Below are positions 13,426-22,484 of a stretch of 64,000 bases of DNA, piece after piece (position 1 is the stretch's first letter; each line of letters opens with the position of its first letter). The notes under the pieces are model-generated. The model was not told where the DNA came from and made no database searches. It saw only the letters and a list, made by a program, of their open reading frames with translations. The stretch spans positions 16,566 through 80,565 of IMG/VR virus record IMGVR_UViG_3300017527_000123, one strand, 5' to 3'. The position numbers were made by a program, and so were the translations under genes. The stretch is from a virus.

Positions 13426-13700
13426 GGATGGCTCCTTTCTTCAGCCGCAGGATTGCTTTCAGGTTCTCCCCACAACTCCCGAAGGAATCTTGAAGTTGGA
13501 TGTGTCTCTTCAAAGGTCAGGGTTCCCTCTCTCCATCGTTTGTGCCAATAGTCAATTTCCACCTTTGCTCTTTTCAGGGAAGGCACCCAAGACATTTTGG
13601 GATAAAACAGATTCCATCCTTGCTGTGTCTTGCAAGTTTGTCCTGTGCCACTCTTGCTCAAGAAACATCTCTCAATTTTTATTCCCAGATATTCTTTCAT
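13422..13700 (-). CDS. Small protein of unknown function
   Basis: 92 residues from ATG 13700, preceded by AAGGAAGGAA. An in-frame start at 13811 lacks such a site and lies wholly inside the upstream zincin gene. Features: MKEYLGIKIERCFLSKSG, then WHKRWREGTLTFEETHP, rich in aromatic and basic residues. The first 29 bp overlap the end of the zincin gene. Unknown family. Confidence 0.65.
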   Translation of the reverse strand: MKEYLGIKIERCFLSKSGTGQTCKTQQGWNLFYPKMSWVPSLKRAKVEIDYWHKRWREGTLTFEETHPTSRFLRELWGEPESNPAAEERSHP

Positions 13701-14220
13701 GGTTGTTGTTTCCTTCCTTTGTTGAAGTGATCTTTCTGAACCGCTTGCCTGAACTGTCAGGATGTTTTTTGTGATATTGCTTTTTGTTATAGTGATCTTT
13801 TTCTCCATCAATTAGCTTGTAGGCAATCTTGCTGTGTGCAATATAGGCGGCACGTTGAAAGGTTCCATCAACAAGAAGGTTGGCAATCTTGATCACATCC
13901 TTTTTCAATTTGGCGGTCAATGTGGATGTGATCTTTTCCGATCCTTCTTCAATCTTGATATAGATGTGAAGCATTTCATGCAAGATGATTGTGACGGTCT
14001 GAGAGAATGTCCGATCCTTTGCAATTTCAATTTCCATTCCCCTGTGCCAAGCCGTTCCGCCAACACCTTCCGGCATCTTTTTGAATTTCACACTGATTGC
14101 TCTGTTTGGAAACTTCGGTTCCAAGTTGTGATATGACAGAACAGAATCACAGGCATGAAGAATGGCCCTTGCTTCTGGAAGGGAAACCCTTGTTGGCTTC
14201 CCTTTGATTTTGAATCTCAT
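13672..14220 (-). CDS. Zincin-like metalloprotease domain protein (HExxH)
   Basis: 182 residues from ATG 14220 (GAAAGGAATCC upstream). The helix SQTVTIILHEMLHIYIKIEE carries HEMLH at 81-85, the gluzincin/SprT-type zinc-binding and catalytic motif. A third ligand is not obvious; Glu88-Glu89 or a downstream His are candidates. Before it, WHRGMEIEIAKDR forms the edge strand usual in zincins. The basic C-terminus (SSGKRFRK) suggests nucleic-acid contact, as in SprT-like proteases that cut proteins crosslinked to DNA. Host targets and activity are unknown. Confidence 0.75.
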   Translation of the reverse strand: MRFKIKGKPTRVSLPEARAILHACDSVLSYHNLEPKFPNRAISVKFKKMPEGVGGTAWHRGMEIEIAKDRTFSQTVTIILHEMLHIYIKIEEGSEKITSTLTAKLKKDVIKIANLLVDGTFQRAAYIAHSKIAYKLIDGEKDHYNKKQYHKKHPDSSGKRFRKITSTKEGNNNHERISGNKN

Positions 14221-14233
14221 AGTTGGATTCCTT

Positions 14234-14755
14234 TCACCAAGGAAGTTCTGTGATGGGTCTGGAAAGATAGGCGGAGACATAACCTGGATAGACCAGCCGC
14301 TTGAACAATGTCCTTGCGCTTCCTGCTTCCTTCCTGGCTTCCTTCTGGTCTTCATCGTTATAGGTTCCGGCGTTGCTGTGGTGAATGTGTGCAATGTCTT
14401 CACAGGCCAGCAGAACCCTTTCACGGAGTGAACCATAATTGGAAGAAGGGTCTTCACTCTCTGTGTCCCTGTAGACTTCAAGCCAATGATCAATTTCACT
14501 GGAACAGCCTGAACATTTCTTGACATGCTTCATGACAATTTCCTCTGTCATCAACTCAACCCGCTTCTCACCCGTTGCTTTCTCTTCAGCCTGGACACAC
14601 TTCTTGCAGACTGTGTTGTCATAGGGTTGAAGGGCTTCACTGGTTTGCACCAAGCACCGATCAGACACAACGCCACAGTATGATTCTGTTCTTGTGTAGG
14701 TGATCATTCCCTTCATCTCTTTTTCTGTTCCTGGCTTTTGGATGTGTGTTTTCAT
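14234..14755 (-). CDS. Cys-rich protein of unknown function
   Basis: 173 residues with a strong start (GAAAGGAAAG). It has Cys pairs VCKKCVQ (about 50-53) and KKCSGCSSEIDHW (about 80-84) plus single Cys residues near 27 and 34, so one or two zinc sites are likely. The C-terminal third (LFKRLVYPGYVSAYLSRP) is more hydrophobic. No family recognised. It lies 13 bp before the zincin gene. Confidence 0.75.
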   Translation of the reverse strand: MKTHIQKPGTEKEMKGMITYTRTESYCGVVSDRCLVQTSEALQPYDNTVCKKCVQAEEKATGEKRVELMTEEIVMKHVKKCSGCSSEIDHWLEVYRDTESEDPSSNYGSLRERVLLACEDIAHIHHSNAGTYNDEDQKEARKEAGSARTLFKRLVYPGYVSAYLSRPITELPW

Positions 14756-15333: not shown

Positions 15334-16242
15334 CTACACAATGTCAATGGCTCTGTTCTTTCGGGTGTTGGAAAGCTGAAGGTCAGGCATGGCTTCGATC
15401 TGGTTGACTGCTTCACTCAATCCCTTTTGCAAGTCAACCTTCAACCGGTCATTGGCCCTGATGTCATCGGCATTGACACCATCCAGATATTTCCGAATGT
15501 CAGAGAGAACAACATCCAATTGCTTCTGGGTATAGAAGCCGCTGAAGAGAGTGTCAACCTTGTCCAGAAAGTTGTTGATGCTCTTGATGGTTCCATTGTT
15601 CACTTTGTCATCTGTGAACTGTGTGGTCAGAGTCTCAACCCGTTTCAGGATTTCATCGGCAATCAAGTTCTTGGTGTCAATCTTGATCTGTTCAACCTCT
15701 TGCTTGAACTTGTCCATCTCTGCTTTCTGGATTCCTGTGGGCAAGCCTCTTGGCGGTGCGTTCAGTCTGATTGTCCACTCAAAACAGAACTTGCTTCTCA
15801 TGGTGTATTCACTTGGATAGTTGGCGGTGATTGCCAACTCAGGGTTGTCACTCTGGAACCTGTTCTTCAGTTGGTTGAAGTTGTTCAGGAACTCTTCAAC
15901 CAAGGCATAATATTCAGCCTTGCATTCATCAAGGAAGGTGTTGGTTTCTTCAACCTTGAACTCAGGGACAAGATAGGTTGCTTCCGCTGGATGCGGGATT
16001 CTCACACCGTTCAAGAAGTTCCTGGCCTTGTCCCTCACCGCTGTCATGTTCTTCAGAAGGGTCTTGTCAGAAATCAGGTCTTGGGTTCCCCAGACATGGT
16101 TCTTGTTGTAGTCATCCTTGATGACCACTGATTCACTCTTGCCAACCGCTGACCACTTCCGAACATTCAGGTTCACAAAGTAGGCAAACTTTTCAGCGTT
16201 GTCAGCGTTGAACTCTTTGTCATTGGCTTTTTGATTCGTCAT
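15334..16242 (-). CDS. Helical protein next to the AAA+ module (DUF3150-like in pattern)
   Basis: 302 residues, mostly helical. The opening FAYFVNLNVRKWSAVGKSES is followed by a central block with LNAPPRGLPTGIQKAEMDKF and a long coiled-coil-prone C-terminus (about 180-290). The N-terminal LNVRKW stretch and the overall layout recall DUF3150 proteins, which phages often encode beside AAA+ ATPases. I am not sure of this. It is 44 bp downstream of the Ycf46-like ATPase gene and shares its direction, so it may be a substrate or partner of that ATPase. Ribosome site AAGGAG. Confidence 0.7.
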   Translation of the reverse strand: MTNQKANDKEFNADNAEKFAYFVNLNVRKWSAVGKSESVVIKDDYNKNHVWGTQDLISDKTLLKNMTAVRDKARNFLNGVRIPHPAEATYLVPEFKVEETNTFLDECKAEYYALVEEFLNNFNQLKNRFQSDNPELAITANYPSEYTMRSKFCFEWTIRLNAPPRGLPTGIQKAEMDKFKQEVEQIKIDTKNLIADEILKRVETLTTQFTDDKVNNGTIKSINNFLDKVDTLFSGFYTQKQLDVVLSDIRKYLDGVNADDIRANDRLKVDLQKGLSEAVNQIEAMPDLQLSNTRKNRAIDIV

Positions 16243-16286
16243 GATTTATTTCTCCTTGAAGATTTGAATTTGGTTTGTTGTGTTCC

Positions 16287-17717
16287 CTAGTTCAGGTTGA
16301 TGCTCCTCTTGCTCTTGGGCTTGGGCTTTGCCAGGGTCAACTTGCTGGCAGAGATGGTTCTCTTCTTGGCCCAAGTTCTCAGCTTGTCAATCTCTTCTGA
16401 CATGGTGTCACTGACCGGAACGATGAAGTCAGAAACTTCACTGATGTCTTCTTCCATCATTGCGGCAATTCGACACATTGCCCGAATCTCTGCGCCTGAC
16501 CAACCTTCCATGTCAGGAGCCTTGCCCTTTACATCATACACTTTGAGATAGTGCTTCAGGATTTCTTCTCTCTCTTCAGCGTTGGGAAGATCAATGAAGA
16601 AAGGTGCTGTGTCCCATCTCTCCGCCCGAACCCATTCAGGCGGCAGGCTGGTGATGTCATTGCATGTTGCAATCACATAGATTCCTTCTGGCCTGTCATC
16701 GGAAAGGAACTTGAGGAACTGCGCCATGCTTCTCTTTGTTGTTCCGCCATCGTTTGCACCCTGACCACCAACACCAGCCAGAGCCTTTTCAATCTCATCA
16801 ACAAACAAGATGCAAGGGGCATTGGCTCTGATGAAGTCCAAGGCGGTCTTCATCAACTTTTCAGATTCACCAACCAAGCCGCCAAACAGTTCAGCAACTT
16901 CCATGACTATCATCTTCTTGCCAGCCTCATTTGAAAGGGCTTTGGCAAACATGCTTTTGCCTGTCCCAGGAGGGCCAAGCAGGATCAAGCCTTTGGCAAA
17001 TGGGGAGTTGATTGTTCGAAGGGTGAAACTTTTCAGCTTTTCATATCCCTTGAGGGAATCAAAGTCTTCTTCATACTGTCCCAACTTCAGGCCAGCAGTT
17101 CTTTCAATCTCAACCGCTTTGATTTCCGCCAGGGTCTTCAGGTTGAACTCACCGCTGTGCTTTATGACACAATAGGCAAGGGCATTTGTGATTTCCCTTT
17201 GAGTCAAACCCTTCATCTCTTGAACGATCTGGTTCCTTGTTTTTTCATCGGGTGAAACATCTGTGGCTTCACAGATGTCATTCACAATTGATTCGATCAC
17301 TTCAGCAGTTGGAAGATCAAAGTTCACTTCAGTGAAGTCCTTCTGAAGGGCTTCAGGAATTGCATCTTCAAACCGTTCGGTGCCAACGATGATCAGAGCC
17401 TTCCGTGATTCCCTGGAAGAGAACTCAATGGCGTTGGCTTGCAGGAAAGCCACATATTCTTTGTTCAGGTCTTTGGCAAAGTCTTGCAGGAACCAGTTGA
17501 AGTTCCTGGCAACCATCACCGAATAAGCGGGAAGGCTTTTCAGGGCTTCAATGACCTGATCAGGATCAGGGCTTGTTGAGAAGTCCCAGAAGTTTGGTTT
17601 GTATTGACCATTGATGTTTTGGAGTTCTTCAACAACTTCCAAAATCTCTGTGGTCTGAACATAAAAATAAACATATCCGGCTCTGAGTTTCATTTCGATT
17701 TCTTTGAGTCCGTTCAT
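16287..17717 (-). CDS. AAA+ ATPase of the Ycf46 type
   Basis: The 476-residue protein has two halves. Residues 1-200 look like a degenerate ATPase domain: the GYVYFYVQTTEILEVVEEL opening, then AYSVMVARNFNWFLQDF and KALIIVGTERFE, without Walker residues. The active AAA+ domain has Walker A GPPGTGKS at 248-255, AELFGGLVGESEKL at 275-287, Walker B ILFVDEIEKA at 303-312, sensor 1 Asn at 353 and an arginine-finger region WVRAERWD at 362-369. This two-part plan and the FGGLVGESE box are typical of Ycf46, a cyanobacterial and plastid-genome AAA+ protein. The next two upstream genes resemble DUF2997 and Ycf35/DUF1257, families that accompany Ycf46 in bacteria. The role is unknown; protein remodelling is likely. 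Confidence 0.85.
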   Translation of the reverse strand: MNGLKEIEMKLRAGYVYFYVQTTEILEVVEELQNINGQYKPNFWDFSTSPDPDQVIEALKSLPAYSVMVARNFNWFLQDFAKDLNKEYVAFLQANAIEFSSRESRKALIIVGTERFEDAIPEALQKDFTEVNFDLPTAEVIESIVNDICEATDVSPDEKTRNQIVQEMKGLTQREITNALAYCVIKHSGEFNLKTLAEIKAVEIERTAGLKLGQYEEDFDSLKGYEKLKSFTLRTINSPFAKGLILLGPPGTGKSMFAKALSNEAGKKMIVMEVAELFGGLVGESEKLMKTALDFIRANAPCILFVDEIEKALAGVGGQGANDGGTTKRSMAQFLKFLSDDRPEGIYVIATCNDITSLPPEWVRAERWDTAPFFIDLPNAEEREEILKHYLKVYDVKGKAPDMEGWSGAEIRAMCRIAAMMEEDISEVSDFIVPVSDTMSEEIDKLRTWAKKRTISASKLTLAKPKPKSKRSINLN

Positions 17718-17781
17718 TGTGATTCTCCTTGTTGCTTTCTGAAAGATTGATTGATTGAATGACTGATTGTTTTGATTTCAT

Positions 17782-17991
17782 CTAATGGCTGTGACCATGA
17801 CCGGTGTGCTGTTTCCTGTGAACATGGACATTCTTGTTCTTCAACTTGGTGGTCTTCCTCTCACCGCCAAGCAACTCTTCAACCTCACTCAAGAACTGTT
17901 CGGCTGAAAGGTGGTTGACACCGCTGATGGAATCGGTCTTGATGCTGATTGTTCCATCTTCCAAAATTTCAAATTCAATTTGATCTGCCAT
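17782..17991 (-). CDS. DUF2997-like small protein with His-rich tail
   Basis: 69 residues. Residues 1-45 (QIEFEILEDGTISIKTDSI, then LSAEQFLSEVEELLGG) follow the DUF2997 pattern: two strands with a DGT turn and a helix ending in LG. The C-terminus is unusual, ending HVHRKQHTGHGHSH, which could bind metal. It has a strong start (GAGGAG) and sits between the Ycf35-like and Ycf46-like genes, the order in which these families are found in cellular genomes. The family assignment is from pattern; context raises confidence. Confidence 0.7.
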   Translation of the reverse strand: MADQIEFEILEDGTISIKTDSISGVNHLSAEQFLSEVEELLGGERKTTKLKNKNVHVHRKQHTGHGHSH

Positions 17992-18011
17992 TGCTTGTTC
18001 TCCTCAGATGA

Positions 18012-18317
18012 TTAGAATTTTTTGGCAACGATTTTGTTTCCCACTCTCTTCAGCAACCACTTCTTTTTCTCAGCAACTTTCTGGATTGCTTTCATTGAAT
18101 AGGCTTTCTTGATTTCATTTCCGATCTGTTCCCTTCTCTCTTCAATGTTCAGCTTGCCTTTCTTCAGGTCAATCTCTCCAAACCTGAAGTTGATGGTTTG
18201 CCTTCGTTCGTTCAGTCTTGCTTCATCAAACCCAAGTGACTTGATTGCTTCCACCAGAAGAAGCGGGTCTGAGACTGAAAGGTCAATGCTGATCAAGTTG
18301 ACTTCATAGCATGGCAT
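18012..18317 (-). CDS. Ycf35/DUF1257-like protein
   Basis: 101 residues. The opening strand CYEVNLISIDLSVSD leads to LLVEAIKSLGFDEA, the LxxALxxLG helix of DUF1257. The C-terminal part (AYSMKAIQKVAEKKKWLLKRVGNKIV) matches the family's AYxxVxxxAxxKGW...DGxIxL ending. DUF1257 proteins (Ycf35) have no established biochemical role. Directly upstream of DUF2997-like and Ycf46-like genes with short gaps (20 bp and 64 bp), it completes a three-gene module that is surprising in a phage. Confidence 0.7.
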   Translation of the reverse strand: MPCYEVNLISIDLSVSDPLLLVEAIKSLGFDEARLNERRQTINFRFGEIDLKKGKLNIEERREQIGNEIKKAYSMKAIQKVAEKKKWLLKRVGNKIVAKKF

Positions 18318-18702: not shown

Positions 18703-18749
18703 ACCATCAACTGAGTTGCCCAAGCTGGTTGGGCAACCGGATTGTTGGT
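18703..18749 (-). repeat. RNA hairpin repeat, copy 1
   Basis: A 47-nt element between two small genes. Read leftward it begins ACCAACAATCCG, forms a perfect 9-bp stem (GTTGCCCAA / TTGGGCAAC) with a 5-nt loop, and ends CTCAGTTGATGGT. The outer segments pair with a single mismatch. Two more copies occur at 19132 and 19884. It follows the stop of the upstream gene by about 5 nt. Confidence 0.8.
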
Positions 18750-18754
18750 GCTGA

Positions 18755-19087
18755 TCAAACATCCATCTCACCACACCTTCGGCAGAAGGAAAGGGCATCA
18801 TCATTTCCATGACTGTCAATGAACTCTCCCTCATCAACATCATGCCCTTCATCTTCACAGATCCTTTCAAGGGCTTTCATGGTGAAGCCATCACGGAGCA
18901 TCCTGCAACCGTTGACCATGACATGAGTGAAGCGGTTGAACTTCTCTTCCTCTGCTTCCAGGGAAGGAATGTCATCTTCCAGATCCCTCAGAGAAGGCGG
19001 GTTGTTCATGTCAAAACACACATCACAGTTGGGAACACCGTTGATCTTCCGGTCAGCTTCTCTGAGTCCACAGATTTGGCATTTCAT
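18755..19087 (-). CDS. Small zinc-ribbon-like protein
   Basis: 110 residues. The N-terminus has CQICGLREA and, 15 residues on, NCDVCFDM: two CxxC pairs (C3-x2-C6 and C21-x2-C24). A third pair, SFCRRCGEMDV, lies at the extreme C-terminus. The middle is acidic and helical. This resembles small treble-clef or ribbon proteins; whether it binds nucleic acid or protein is unknown. Start ATG 19087 follows AAGGAGAG. The stop lies within the conserved edge of the hairpin repeat. Confidence 0.75.
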   Translation of the reverse strand: MKCQICGLREADRKINGVPNCDVCFDMNNPPSLRDLEDDIPSLEAEEEKFNRFTHVMVNGCRMLRDGFTMKALERICEDEGHDVDEGEFIDSHGNDDALSFCRRCGEMDV

Positions 19088-19131
19088 TTTTTCTCTCCTT
19101 CTTGGTTTGGTTTGGTTTGTTGTTTCAGTTC

Positions 19132-19179
19132 ACCATCAACTGAGTTGCCCAACCGGAGTTGGACAACCGGATTGTTGGT
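19132..19179 (-). repeat. RNA hairpin repeat, copy 2
   Basis: Same element as at 18703. Read leftward the stem is GTTGTCCAAC / GTTGGGCAAC (10 bp, one G-U wobble) capped by TCCG, a UNCG-type tetraloop closed by C-G. On the + strand the same position would be an A-C mismatch, so the structure is sensible only in leftward RNA. Confidence 0.8.
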
Positions 19180-19184
19180 TCTGA

Positions 19185-19412
19185 TCAACCAAAATATTCA
19201 TCCACATAGTCTTGGCCCCAAGCCTGCCTTGCCTGCTCCTTCTCCCTGGCAAGTTCATATTCAAAATCACACTTCATGTCATACATCTGAACCAACTTCT
19301 CTCTGTCCTTGATGTTGAACTTCTCAATGGTTTGGAACTCTGCTTCAGGAAACTCAACTCCGTTGCTGATCAGGCTGTCCAGGTGGTTGACTGCTTTTGA
19401 ATACTTGCTCAT
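19185..19412 (-). CDS. Small charged helical protein
   Basis: 75 residues from ATG 19412, preceded by AAGGAGAG. Highly charged and helical (KFNIKDREKLVQMYDMKCDF, then EYELAREKEQARQAWG), likely one or two long helices. The longer open frame upstream overlaps the preceding gene and has no ribosome site. Function unknown. Confidence 0.7.
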   Translation of the reverse strand: MSKYSKAVNHLDSLISNGVEFPEAEFQTIEKFNIKDREKLVQMYDMKCDFEYELAREKEQARQAWGQDYVDEYFG

Positions 19413-19827: not shown

Positions 19828-19883
19828 TTGCTGTCTCCTTCTTGTTGGGTTTGGTTTGTGTTGCTGTGCTGTTCATGGTTCTG

Positions 19884-19933
19884 ACCATCAATTGAGTTGC
19901 CCAACCTTTCAGTCAGGCAACCGGATTGTTGGT
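19884..19933 (-). repeat. RNA hairpin repeat, copy 3
   Basis: Same element as at 18703 and 19132. Read leftward the stem is GTTGCCTGAC / GTTGGGCAAC (10 bp with two adjacent G-U wobbles) around a 6-nt loop. The flanks ACCAACAATCCG and TTGATGGT are kept while the upper stem varies, a pattern expected of a conserved RNA structure. Confidence 0.8.
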
Positions 19934-20196
19934 CAGCCACTCTGGGTGACTGCCTTGCTGTGAATGTTGAACCAACCGTGATTCCTTTCGGATTCACCTG
20001 AAGGCTTGGTGTAGATAAAATCAAAATAGCGTTCATCCTCTGGGGAAGAATCCCCTGAGTGCCAATTGTAAAGATCCACAAACTTGGCAACCTGATGAAG
20101 CAGGATGTCTTCAGAGAAGATGGCTCCGCAGGCTTGGCAAGTTTCGATCAGGGAGCCGTGATTGATGTTGTTGCTGGAACAAGCTGGACAGTTCAT
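19933..20196 (-). CDS. Small zinc-ribbon-like protein
   Basis: 87 residues from ATG 20196, 6 nt after AAGGAGAA. It begins MNCPACSSNNINHG and continues LIETCQACGAIFSED: C3-x2-C6 and C21-x2-C24, a classic zinc-ribbon spacing. The rest contains aromatic segments (FVDLYNWHSGDSS, RYFDFIYTKPSG). The longer frame runs back through a hairpin and is rejected. Unknown role. Confidence 0.72.
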   Translation of the reverse strand: MNCPACSSNNINHGSLIETCQACGAIFSEDILLHQVAKFVDLYNWHSGDSSPEDERYFDFIYTKPSGESERNHGWFNIHSKAVTQSG

Positions 20197-21796: not shown

Positions 21797-21943
21797 ATGG
21801 AAATTTGCCAATCCTTCTTTCAAGAAGAAACCATCTTCAACCAACTCCTTCCGTTCTTCATTTCAAAAACCACTCCTGAACAACATTGCTTTTCTTCTGA
21901 TCACATTCACAGATCAATGAGGTTTTCTATTCATGGAAAATAA
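21797..21943 (+). CDS. Possible 48-residue leader protein
   Basis: ATG 21797 follows GGAAAG by 5 nt. The product (MEICQSFFQEETIFNQLLPF...) ends 11 nt inside the next gene, whose own ribosome site is weak, so translational coupling is plausible. It is the first frame on the rightward transcript. Alternatively the region is only a leader. No motif. Confidence 0.4.
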   Translation: MEICQSFFQEETIFNQLLPFFISKTTPEQHCFSSDHIHRSMRFSIHGK

Positions 21944-22484
21944 AATCATCAAAAGCCAGAAGGTCAATTGGAAGGAACTGAAACTCTTCCAACCGGCAGA
22001 GATGAAAAGGATGAGCAAAGCACAATTGAAAAAGCTGAAGCTGTCTCTTTCAAGGAATGGATTCCGTTCTCCTTTCTATGTCTGGGAAGATGAGAACGGT
22101 GAACTCTATTGCCTGGATGGTCATCACCGAATCCCCACATTGTTTTTGCTTGAGAAGGATGGTGAACCCATCCCTGAAAAACTCCCTGCCAACTTTGTCA
22201 GGTGCAAAGACATTCAGGAAGCCAAGAAGACAGTTCTCATTTTCAATTCCCATTATGCAAAAATTCAAAAGGAATCCCTCCTTGATTGGGTTGAGGATCT
22301 TGATTTTGATGAGATGATGGAAGAGATTGATTTGCCCAACATCAACTTTGATCTGTCACCAACCAAAGAGGAAACAATTCAACCAAACTTTCAGATCATT
22401 ATAGACTTTCAGAACCAGCAGGATCTTGAACAAGCCTATGGCAAACTGATTGAAGAGAAATATCAATGCAGGATCATTGTCTGA
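21933..22484 (+). CDS. ParB-like nuclease-domain protein
   Basis: 183 residues. The N-terminal ParB/Srx-type domain shows VNWKELKLFQPAEM, then LKLSLSRNGFRSPFYVWED and LYCLDGHHRIPTLFLLEKDG with the DGHHR catalytic or CTP-binding box at about residues 63-67. The C-terminal half is acidic and then ends in a strand-rich QPNFQIIIDFQNQQD segment. Phage ParB-like proteins beside terminase can nick DNA or modulate packaging; which applies is unknown. It is the second ParB-like protein here (the other is at 4115) but differs in length and C-terminus. Confidence 0.8.
   Translation: MENKIIKSQKVNWKELKLFQPAEMKRMSKAQLKKLKLSLSRNGFRSPFYVWEDENGELYCLDGHHRIPTLFLLEKDGEPIPEKLPANFVRCKDIQEAKKTVLIFNSHYAKIQKESLLDWVEDLDFDEMMEEIDLPNINFDLSPTKEETIQPNFQIIIDFQNQQDLEQAYGKLIEEKYQCRIIV

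Follow-up and report, generated by a model that had tools for sequence, protein, structure and literature searches.

A phage-borne Ycf46-type ATPase set with DUF1257-, DUF2997- and DUF3150-like partners: a candidate protein-remodelling module with shared C-terminal tails

The 64,000-nucleotide stretch analysed here (the window) is part of an IMG/VR virus record of 80,565 bases in total (IMGVR_UViG_3300017527_000123) and carries four consecutive minus-strand open reading frames (ORFs), from 18317 to 15334, which encode in order a DUF1257-like protein, a DUF2997-like protein, a tandem-AAA ATPase and a DUF3150 protein. We propose that they form a protein-remodelling module in which a Cdc48/p97-like ATPase and a DUF1257-DUF2997 adaptor would act on clients recruited by a C-terminal docking peptide, a reading to which we assign a probability of about 0.4. 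The proposal draws on two features, both apparently previously unreported: a C-terminal tail shared by the ATPase and its fourth partner, which the first-pass annotation of this DNA had missed, and a matched Cys/His pair in the two small proteins. The genes and the motifs discussed first are as follows.

18012..18317, minus strand: DUF1257/Ycf35-like protein, 101 residues, MPCYEV subtype (hhalign; iterative hidden Markov model, HMM)
17782..17991, minus strand: DUF2997-like protein, 69 residues (sub-threshold Pfam match; hhalign)
16287..17717, minus strand: Ycf46-type tandem-AAA ATPase, 476 residues (Pfam, phrog_8638, AlphaFold2, Foldseek and cyanobacterial profile matches)
15334..16242, minus strand: DUF3150 helical protein, 302 residues, the variable fourth partner (Pfam; relatives beside the ATPase)
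16953..16976, minus strand: Walker A in the C-terminal AAA half, GPPGTGKS (sequence; columns G251 and K254 invariant in the alignment)
16794..16811, minus strand: Walker B in the C-terminal AAA half; its final residues, 307-308, are DE (sequence and alignment)
16290..16310, minus strand: C-terminal docking-type motif of the ATPase, KRSINLN (disordered in the AlphaFold2 model, pLDDT ~50)
15337..15357, minus strand: C-terminal docking-type motif of the DUF3150 protein, NRAIDIV (motif match; pairing with the ATPase tail)

The ATPase and the tail shared with its fourth partner

Among the ATPases and DUF3150 proteins of the loci compared, linkers that could not be aligned were followed by a tail of the form R-x-hydrophobic-x-hydrophobic. 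Of 50 ATPase tails, 24 had the motif, compared with about 5% of shuffled tails; of 33 DUF3150 tails, 29 had it, where shuffling gave an expectation of 6-11%. The two tails of a locus also resembled each other: over 24 non-redundant loci, with ATPases <60% identical, the similarity of ATPase and DUF3150 tails from the same locus was 13.25 versus 9.97 after permutation, and none of 10,000 permutations was as high (P ~1e-4). Examples of matching pairs are KRAIDY/KRALDY in locus L064 and KRSLEV/KRSLEF in L013. Within the window phage, the terminal form of the pattern was confined to the ATPase and the DUF3150 protein among 118 called ORFs. The simple pattern separated the ATPase tails better than a position-specific scoring matrix trained on DUF3150 tails, because the distance from the motif to the end of the protein varies between tails.

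The tail was also present where the fourth protein is unrelated to DUF3150. In a Streptococcus satellite phage (L086), a 573-residue protein ending in NRKIKI accompanies an ATPase ending in TRKVLV, and on a Paenarthrobacter plasmid (L102) a membrane protein with a helix-hairpin-helix region ends in GRTLDL and the ATPase in GRRIDF. Two membrane proteins of Paenibacillus end in SRVIHF and KRVIRL (the latter in L103), and the motif was present in proteins of 208-243 residues encoded by Agrobacterium, Rhizobium, Aeromonas and Rhodobacter phages and by a Rhizobium plasmid. Unrelated fourth proteins with the motif include those that end in RRAVKL (L082), NRKLKL (L083), GRKITI (L084) and RRALDL (L107). 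In ten annotated records the pattern occurred in the last eight residues of 13 of 157 other genes, mostly fourth-protein partners, versus an internal rate of 2.8%. The motif was missing from the DUF3150-type proteins that accompany MoxR and VWA genes. The ATPase tail was kept in three-gene chromosomal sets (RRKIEF, RKLEL, RKIDI and RQIEI, with QRMEF and QRLEF in cyanobacteria), and because the ATPase retains it in sets that have no DUF3150 protein, the receptor for the tail probably lies inside the core of the module.

Further tails of this kind were noted beside individual ATPases. Small unrelated proteins of one phage (L004, 5470-5826 and 9446-9736; G003:C1:28516-28734) end in PLRKINI, PLRKINV and ERKIDV, with LRKINV on the ATPase, and on the likeness of these endings they are candidates for extra clients. 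Unrelated proteins encoded near the ATPase in L016 (9531-9998 and 10001-10645) and L047 (12432-13370) have matching tails, KKRTIRI, KKRAIII and PKRKFNLE.

The ATPase itself matched the Pfam AAA model PF00004 (E=1.2e-26, residues 244-370) and phrog_8638 (3.5e-62). Its AlphaFold2 model (pLDDT 91.3) comprises two AAA-like halves and a disordered tail; the N-terminal half (residues 1-205) is without Walker motifs and the C-terminal half has them. The best matches of the model among solved structures (PDB) in Foldseek were the tandem-AAA proteins p97/Cdc48, Rix7 and Drg1, a similarity of fold from which Cdc48/p97-like remodelling is predicted as a functional analogy. With a profile of 38 phage-type ATPases, full-length homologues were found in each of the 59 cyanobacterial genomes searched, at a best E of ~1e-112 to 1e-137, usually as two full-length copies per genome and often with a DUF1257 gene adjacent; the name Ycf46 for these homologues is deduced from size, architecture and neighbour, with no annotated record behind it. 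The Ycf46 architecture that the first-pass annotation had recognised is supported by the two AAA-like halves and by the cyanobacterial matches. FtsH, a candidate identity, was rejected, as only the AAA domain (residues 241-421) matched FtsH models, at 68 bits against a cut-off of 600, and the metalloprotease domain was not found in the protein. The fourth protein matched DUF3150 (PF11348) at E=1.1e-10 and 41.8 bits, above the cut-off of 24.9. On plasmids, DUF3150-type proteins were also observed with a MoxR-type ATPase on one side and a VWA protein on the other (L204, 4926-5843; L205, 4917-5816), so this helical family occurs beside both Ycf46-type and MoxR-type ATPases and therefore serves two classes of AAA+ machine.

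The small proteins and their matched Cys/His pair

Direct Pfam proof of the two small families failed. DUF1257 (PF06868) matched neither the window protein nor the relatives and phage records searched, and DUF2997 (PF11211) matched at E=0.07 and 13.5 bits, under its cut-off of 24.1. Profile-profile comparison was used after this, with profiles built from relatives on viral contigs, and hhalign joined the window-type sets to annotated DUF1257 with 93.8% probability (E 1.7e-7) and to annotated DUF2997 with 94.6% (E 6.9e-8), the negative control giving 1.1%. An iterative HMM connected the DUF1257-like protein to members beginning with MSH, and true PF11211 matches adjoin the ATPase in related phages (49.1 bits in L004 and 38.9 bits in Agrobacterium phage JP1). 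The four gene identities first suggested from the letters alone were thus borne out, although the Pfam search named as their check sufficed for the AAA and DUF3150 proteins and it was hhalign that placed the small two. The AlphaFold2 model of the DUF1257-like protein is alpha/beta (pLDDT 84.5); it had no significant Foldseek match in the PDB, and a PDB sequence search with the protein returned noise only. Translated searches (tblastn) with the DUF1257-like and DUF3150 proteins gave no matches in annotated phages. A spurious 17-residue match to the DUF1257 query in L005 was excluded.

Three features of the small genes are set out below.

18309..18311, minus strand: Cys3 codon of the DUF1257-like protein, where canonical MSH proteins have His3 (sequence; switch table)
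17911..17913, minus strand: His27 codon of the DUF2997-like protein; canonical DUF2997 has its invariant Cys at the aligned position (hhalign register; switch table)
17785..17835, minus strand: His-rich C-terminal tail of the DUF2997-like protein, KNVHVHRKQHTGHGHSH (sequence; recurs in relatives)

The DUF2997-like protein has His27 in place of the invariant Cys of the canonical pattern G-x-x-C-x-x-A, and His at this position was invariant in 16 of 16 members of the window subtype. Judged by its sequence, it is a switched subtype, that is, a homologous but non-canonical member of the family. The switch was accompanied by one in its partner. A DUF1257 protein starting with MPC occurred with His in DUF2997 in 20 loci, and one starting with MSH occurred with Cys in about 40; after inspection there were no mismatched pairs over all loci in which both residues could be read, a few loci with truncated N-termini being unreadable. 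In Paenibacillus, DUF1257 has Phe at position 3 and its DUF2997 partner has Cys. On the ATPase tree the type of pair changed at least five times, four of the changes being forced by well-supported branches. With pairs that are always matched and have changed repeatedly, both genes must switch together or be exchanged together. In structural terms this is most simply read as a site common to DUF1257 and DUF2997 to which these residues contribute, possibly a metal site. The first-pass annotation had also drawn attention to the His-rich tail, and this is a recurrent feature of the subtype: at least four His in the last 28 residues were found in 14 of 20 proteins of the window subtype versus 4 of 72 of the other. 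Such a tail fits metal binding without being proof of it.

Distribution, proposed mechanism and alternative explanations

Another 25 viral loci, among which the gene order varies, contained all four families, as did a plasmid of Candidatus Manganitrophus (Nitrospirota, CP114554), where all the products are annotated, and Planctomycetota chromosomes. Three-gene sets that have no DUF3150 protein were found on plasmids of Geminocystis, Paenibacillus, Bacillus, Trichormus and Rhizobium, in genomes from the Planctomycetota search and in annotated phages such as Rhizobium phage RHph_I4, whose GenBank annotation already lists the ATPase, DUF1257 and DUF2997. The first view, that a location in a phage is unexpected, is therefore not supported; the set belongs to a group that is widespread, annotated in part and unstudied. 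Our literature search turned up no relevant papers on Ycf46 with phage, on DUF3150 or on AAA+ ATPases with a C-terminal motif, and no mechanism for Ycf46, Ycf35/DUF1257, DUF2997 or DUF3150 was found in the literature searched, widespread as these families are. In Synechocystis, slr0374/Ycf46 is stress-responsive and affects the activity of the carbonic anhydrase EcaB, according to the passage of PMC7496141 that cites Jiang 2015, and the cyanobacterial DUF2997-ycf35 pair sits with the ferredoxin gene fed7 (PMC4284462). These reports are compatible with a remodelling function and do not identify one. On the plasmids of L101, L102, L103 and L104, 4Fe-4S single-cluster or cluster-binding domain proteins were observed near the ATPase set, an arrangement reminiscent of fed7 beside the cyanobacterial pair.

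In the mechanism that we favour, the ATPase would be a tandem-AAA ring machine of the Cdc48/p97 kind, presumably hexameric, whose first ring is inactive and whose second is active, as its modelled fold suggests. The DUF1257-like and DUF2997-like proteins, whose coordinated switching points to an obligate pair, would probably contact each other as a heterodimeric adaptor, and the Cys/His site would span their interface, possibly binding a metal. The earlier proposal that the small proteins are adaptors thereby gains indirect support from the switch. The tail peptide would dock on a core component, either DUF1257/DUF2997 or the N-terminal half of the ATPase, and the fourth protein, here DUF3150, may be plugged into the machine as a dedicated client or cargo adaptor. 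From its position in the phage, upstream of the helicase and primase genes and on their strand, the module would probably act at an early stage, with a replication or host complex as its target. A broader form of this proposal, which we advance only tentatively and consider doubtful, is that the Ycf46 ATPase and DUF1257-DUF2997 constitute a general mobile client-remodelling machine, the tail tagging unrelated clients of phages, plasmids and chromosomes and the adaptor sensing metal or redox state via the split Cys/His site.

Several observations weigh against the remodelling proposal. About half of the ATPase tails miss the strict motif, and in several Agrobacterium-, Rhizobium- and Pseudomonas-type phages the ATPase tail itself does not have it. 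The nominal P values overstate the evidence because the loci are related by descent, and the tail pattern was derived from the same data in which it was counted, only the Planctomycetota and annotated-record sets having come afterwards. The pore-loop segment of the ATPase, GGLVGESE, contains no aromatic residue, which makes strong threading uncertain. The main alternative for the Cys/His switch is that it could reflect exchange of both genes as a linked cassette, with no contact between their products.

That the tails are alike as a functionless by-product of basic, low-complexity C-termini and shared ancestry draws on their richness in lysine and arginine, their predicted disorder and the relatedness of the loci, but we regard it as the least probable explanation, as the motif was observed in 48-88% of tails versus 5-11% after shuffling, own-locus pairing exceeded permutation among ATPases <60% identical, the DUF3150-type proteins of MoxR systems do not carry the tail, and 2 of the 118 called ORFs of the phage match, namely the ATPase and DUF3150. 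If the tail is functional, the fourth protein might still be a structural or regulatory subunit whose tail mimics that of the ATPase and, by taking its site, caps, tethers or inhibits the ring. An ATPase that bears the tail itself, even where DUF3150 is missing, leaves room for such a mimic, and the DUF3150-type proteins beside MoxR (with VWA) on plasmids are placed as an AAA+-associated regulator would be. The fourth slot is, however, taken by unrelated helical, beta-rich and membrane proteins, which are easier to picture as clients; a regulator is the strongest of the rivals but, on balance, unlikely.

We also considered whether the phage has captured an ordinary bacterial chaperone of the Ycf46/Ycf35/DUF2997 stress type, which would serve it as an auxiliary module and guard host metabolism or redox proteins. 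The relatives in all cyanobacterial genomes searched, the fed7 neighbour (PMC4284462), the stress response and EcaB effect (as given in that passage of PMC7496141 citing Jiang 2015) and the 4Fe-4S proteins adjoining the set on several plasmids would agree with this. Yet the copies in phages come with DUF3150 and show deep divergence across many lineages, so they are not of recent capture, and no Fe-S gene was recognised beside the set in the window; we think this explanation distinctly unlikely. A conflict module (toxin-antitoxin, defence or counter-defence), like the related AAA ATPases of IetAS and SgiAT, is improbable. PADLOC IetA models matched the ATPase domain (5.9e-23), the SGI1 antitoxin has been described as a SpoVK/Ycf46/Vps4-superfamily ATPase (PMC10954446), and the set is frequent on plasmids and phages. 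That match is nevertheless limited to the generic AAA domain, the other three proteins had no PADLOC defence match at <=0.001, neither a subtilisin-like serine protease nor another effector was recognised among the neighbouring ORFs, and the set is chromosomal too. Membership of the IetAS or SgiAT defence systems was accordingly rejected.

Returning to the remodelling proposal, the two sequence rules, docking tail and matched Cys/His, predict binding partners, the residues involved and client genes that are as yet unannotated; the finding exceeds annotation because they make an uncharacterised family testable. If the proposal is true, bacteria and phages would share an AAA+ system that recruits its clients by a tag, and there would be a handle on a long-standing question of cyanobacterial and plastid biology.

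Genomic setting and comparison with known systems

The four genes are separated by 20, 64 and 44 bases, and a purine-rich ribosome-binding site can be read ahead of all four starts. With such short gaps and a site before each start, a single operon is plausible from the arrangement. The window phage carries terminase, portal and head morphogenesis genes, and a helicase, a primase and a helicase-loader-like gene lie on the same strand as the module, which is upstream of them; with structural genes present and these genes downstream, the module region is of the early type of a tailed phage. The 16-mer CAACCGGATTGTTGGT occurs as three exact copies in an intergenic repeat upstream of the module (18704-18760, 19130-19187 and 19883-19940; expected 0.04), and one repeat copy contains a hairpin on the transcribed strand (-26.9 kcal/mol, z -3.3). 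This hairpin repeat may serve the early operon as a signal for regulation or processing. A ParB-like protein is encoded on the opposite strand at 21933-22484, where the early and structural regions meet, and the ORF at 13672-14526 has a HEMLH metallopeptidase-like motif and no PHROG match.

In the SspB-ClpX system a short C-terminal peptide tethers a partner to an AAA+ machine, and ClpX itself is not known to carry such a peptide. The proposed tail docking resembles this by analogy. The MoxR-DUF3150-VWA sets on Burkholderiales and Acetobacteraceae plasmids place a DUF3150-type protein beside an AAA+ ATPase gene, but the ATPase belongs to another AAA+ class, no DUF1257 or DUF2997 is listed and the C-terminal motif is missing. 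The p97/Cdc48, Rix7 and Drg1 proteins share the fold across the whole ATPase, over >500 alignment columns, whereas the phage ATPase has no ubiquitin-binding N domain and no Walker motifs in its N-terminal AAA-like half.

Other parallels are found among the sets themselves. The Candidatus Manganitrophus plasmid set has the same four families in one short stretch and differs in its canonical Cys-type DUF2997, a DUF3150 split over two reading frames and a longer ATPase tail (QRRLRGG...). The modules of RHph_I4, JP1 and Aeromonas phage HJ05 resemble that of the window as phage sets in which members of DUF1257 and DUF2997 come after an ATPase, yet their fourth gene encodes an unrelated protein of 208-243 residues that nonetheless ends in the motif (RRAVKL, KRRLRLS and NRKLKL). 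The Ycf46-Ycf35(DUF1257)-DUF2997 group of cyanobacteria, red-algal plastids and other bacteria shares with the phage set the tandem ATPase with a degenerate N-terminal half, both small partners and the adjacency of ATPase and DUF1257, and some of its chromosomal ATPases have a similar tail, EYQR[ML]EF in cyanobacteria and RKIDI, RKLEL and RRKIEF in Planctomycetota. To this common plan the phage set adds a DUF3150 protein with a matching tail, the switched MPC and His pair, and the His-rich tail.

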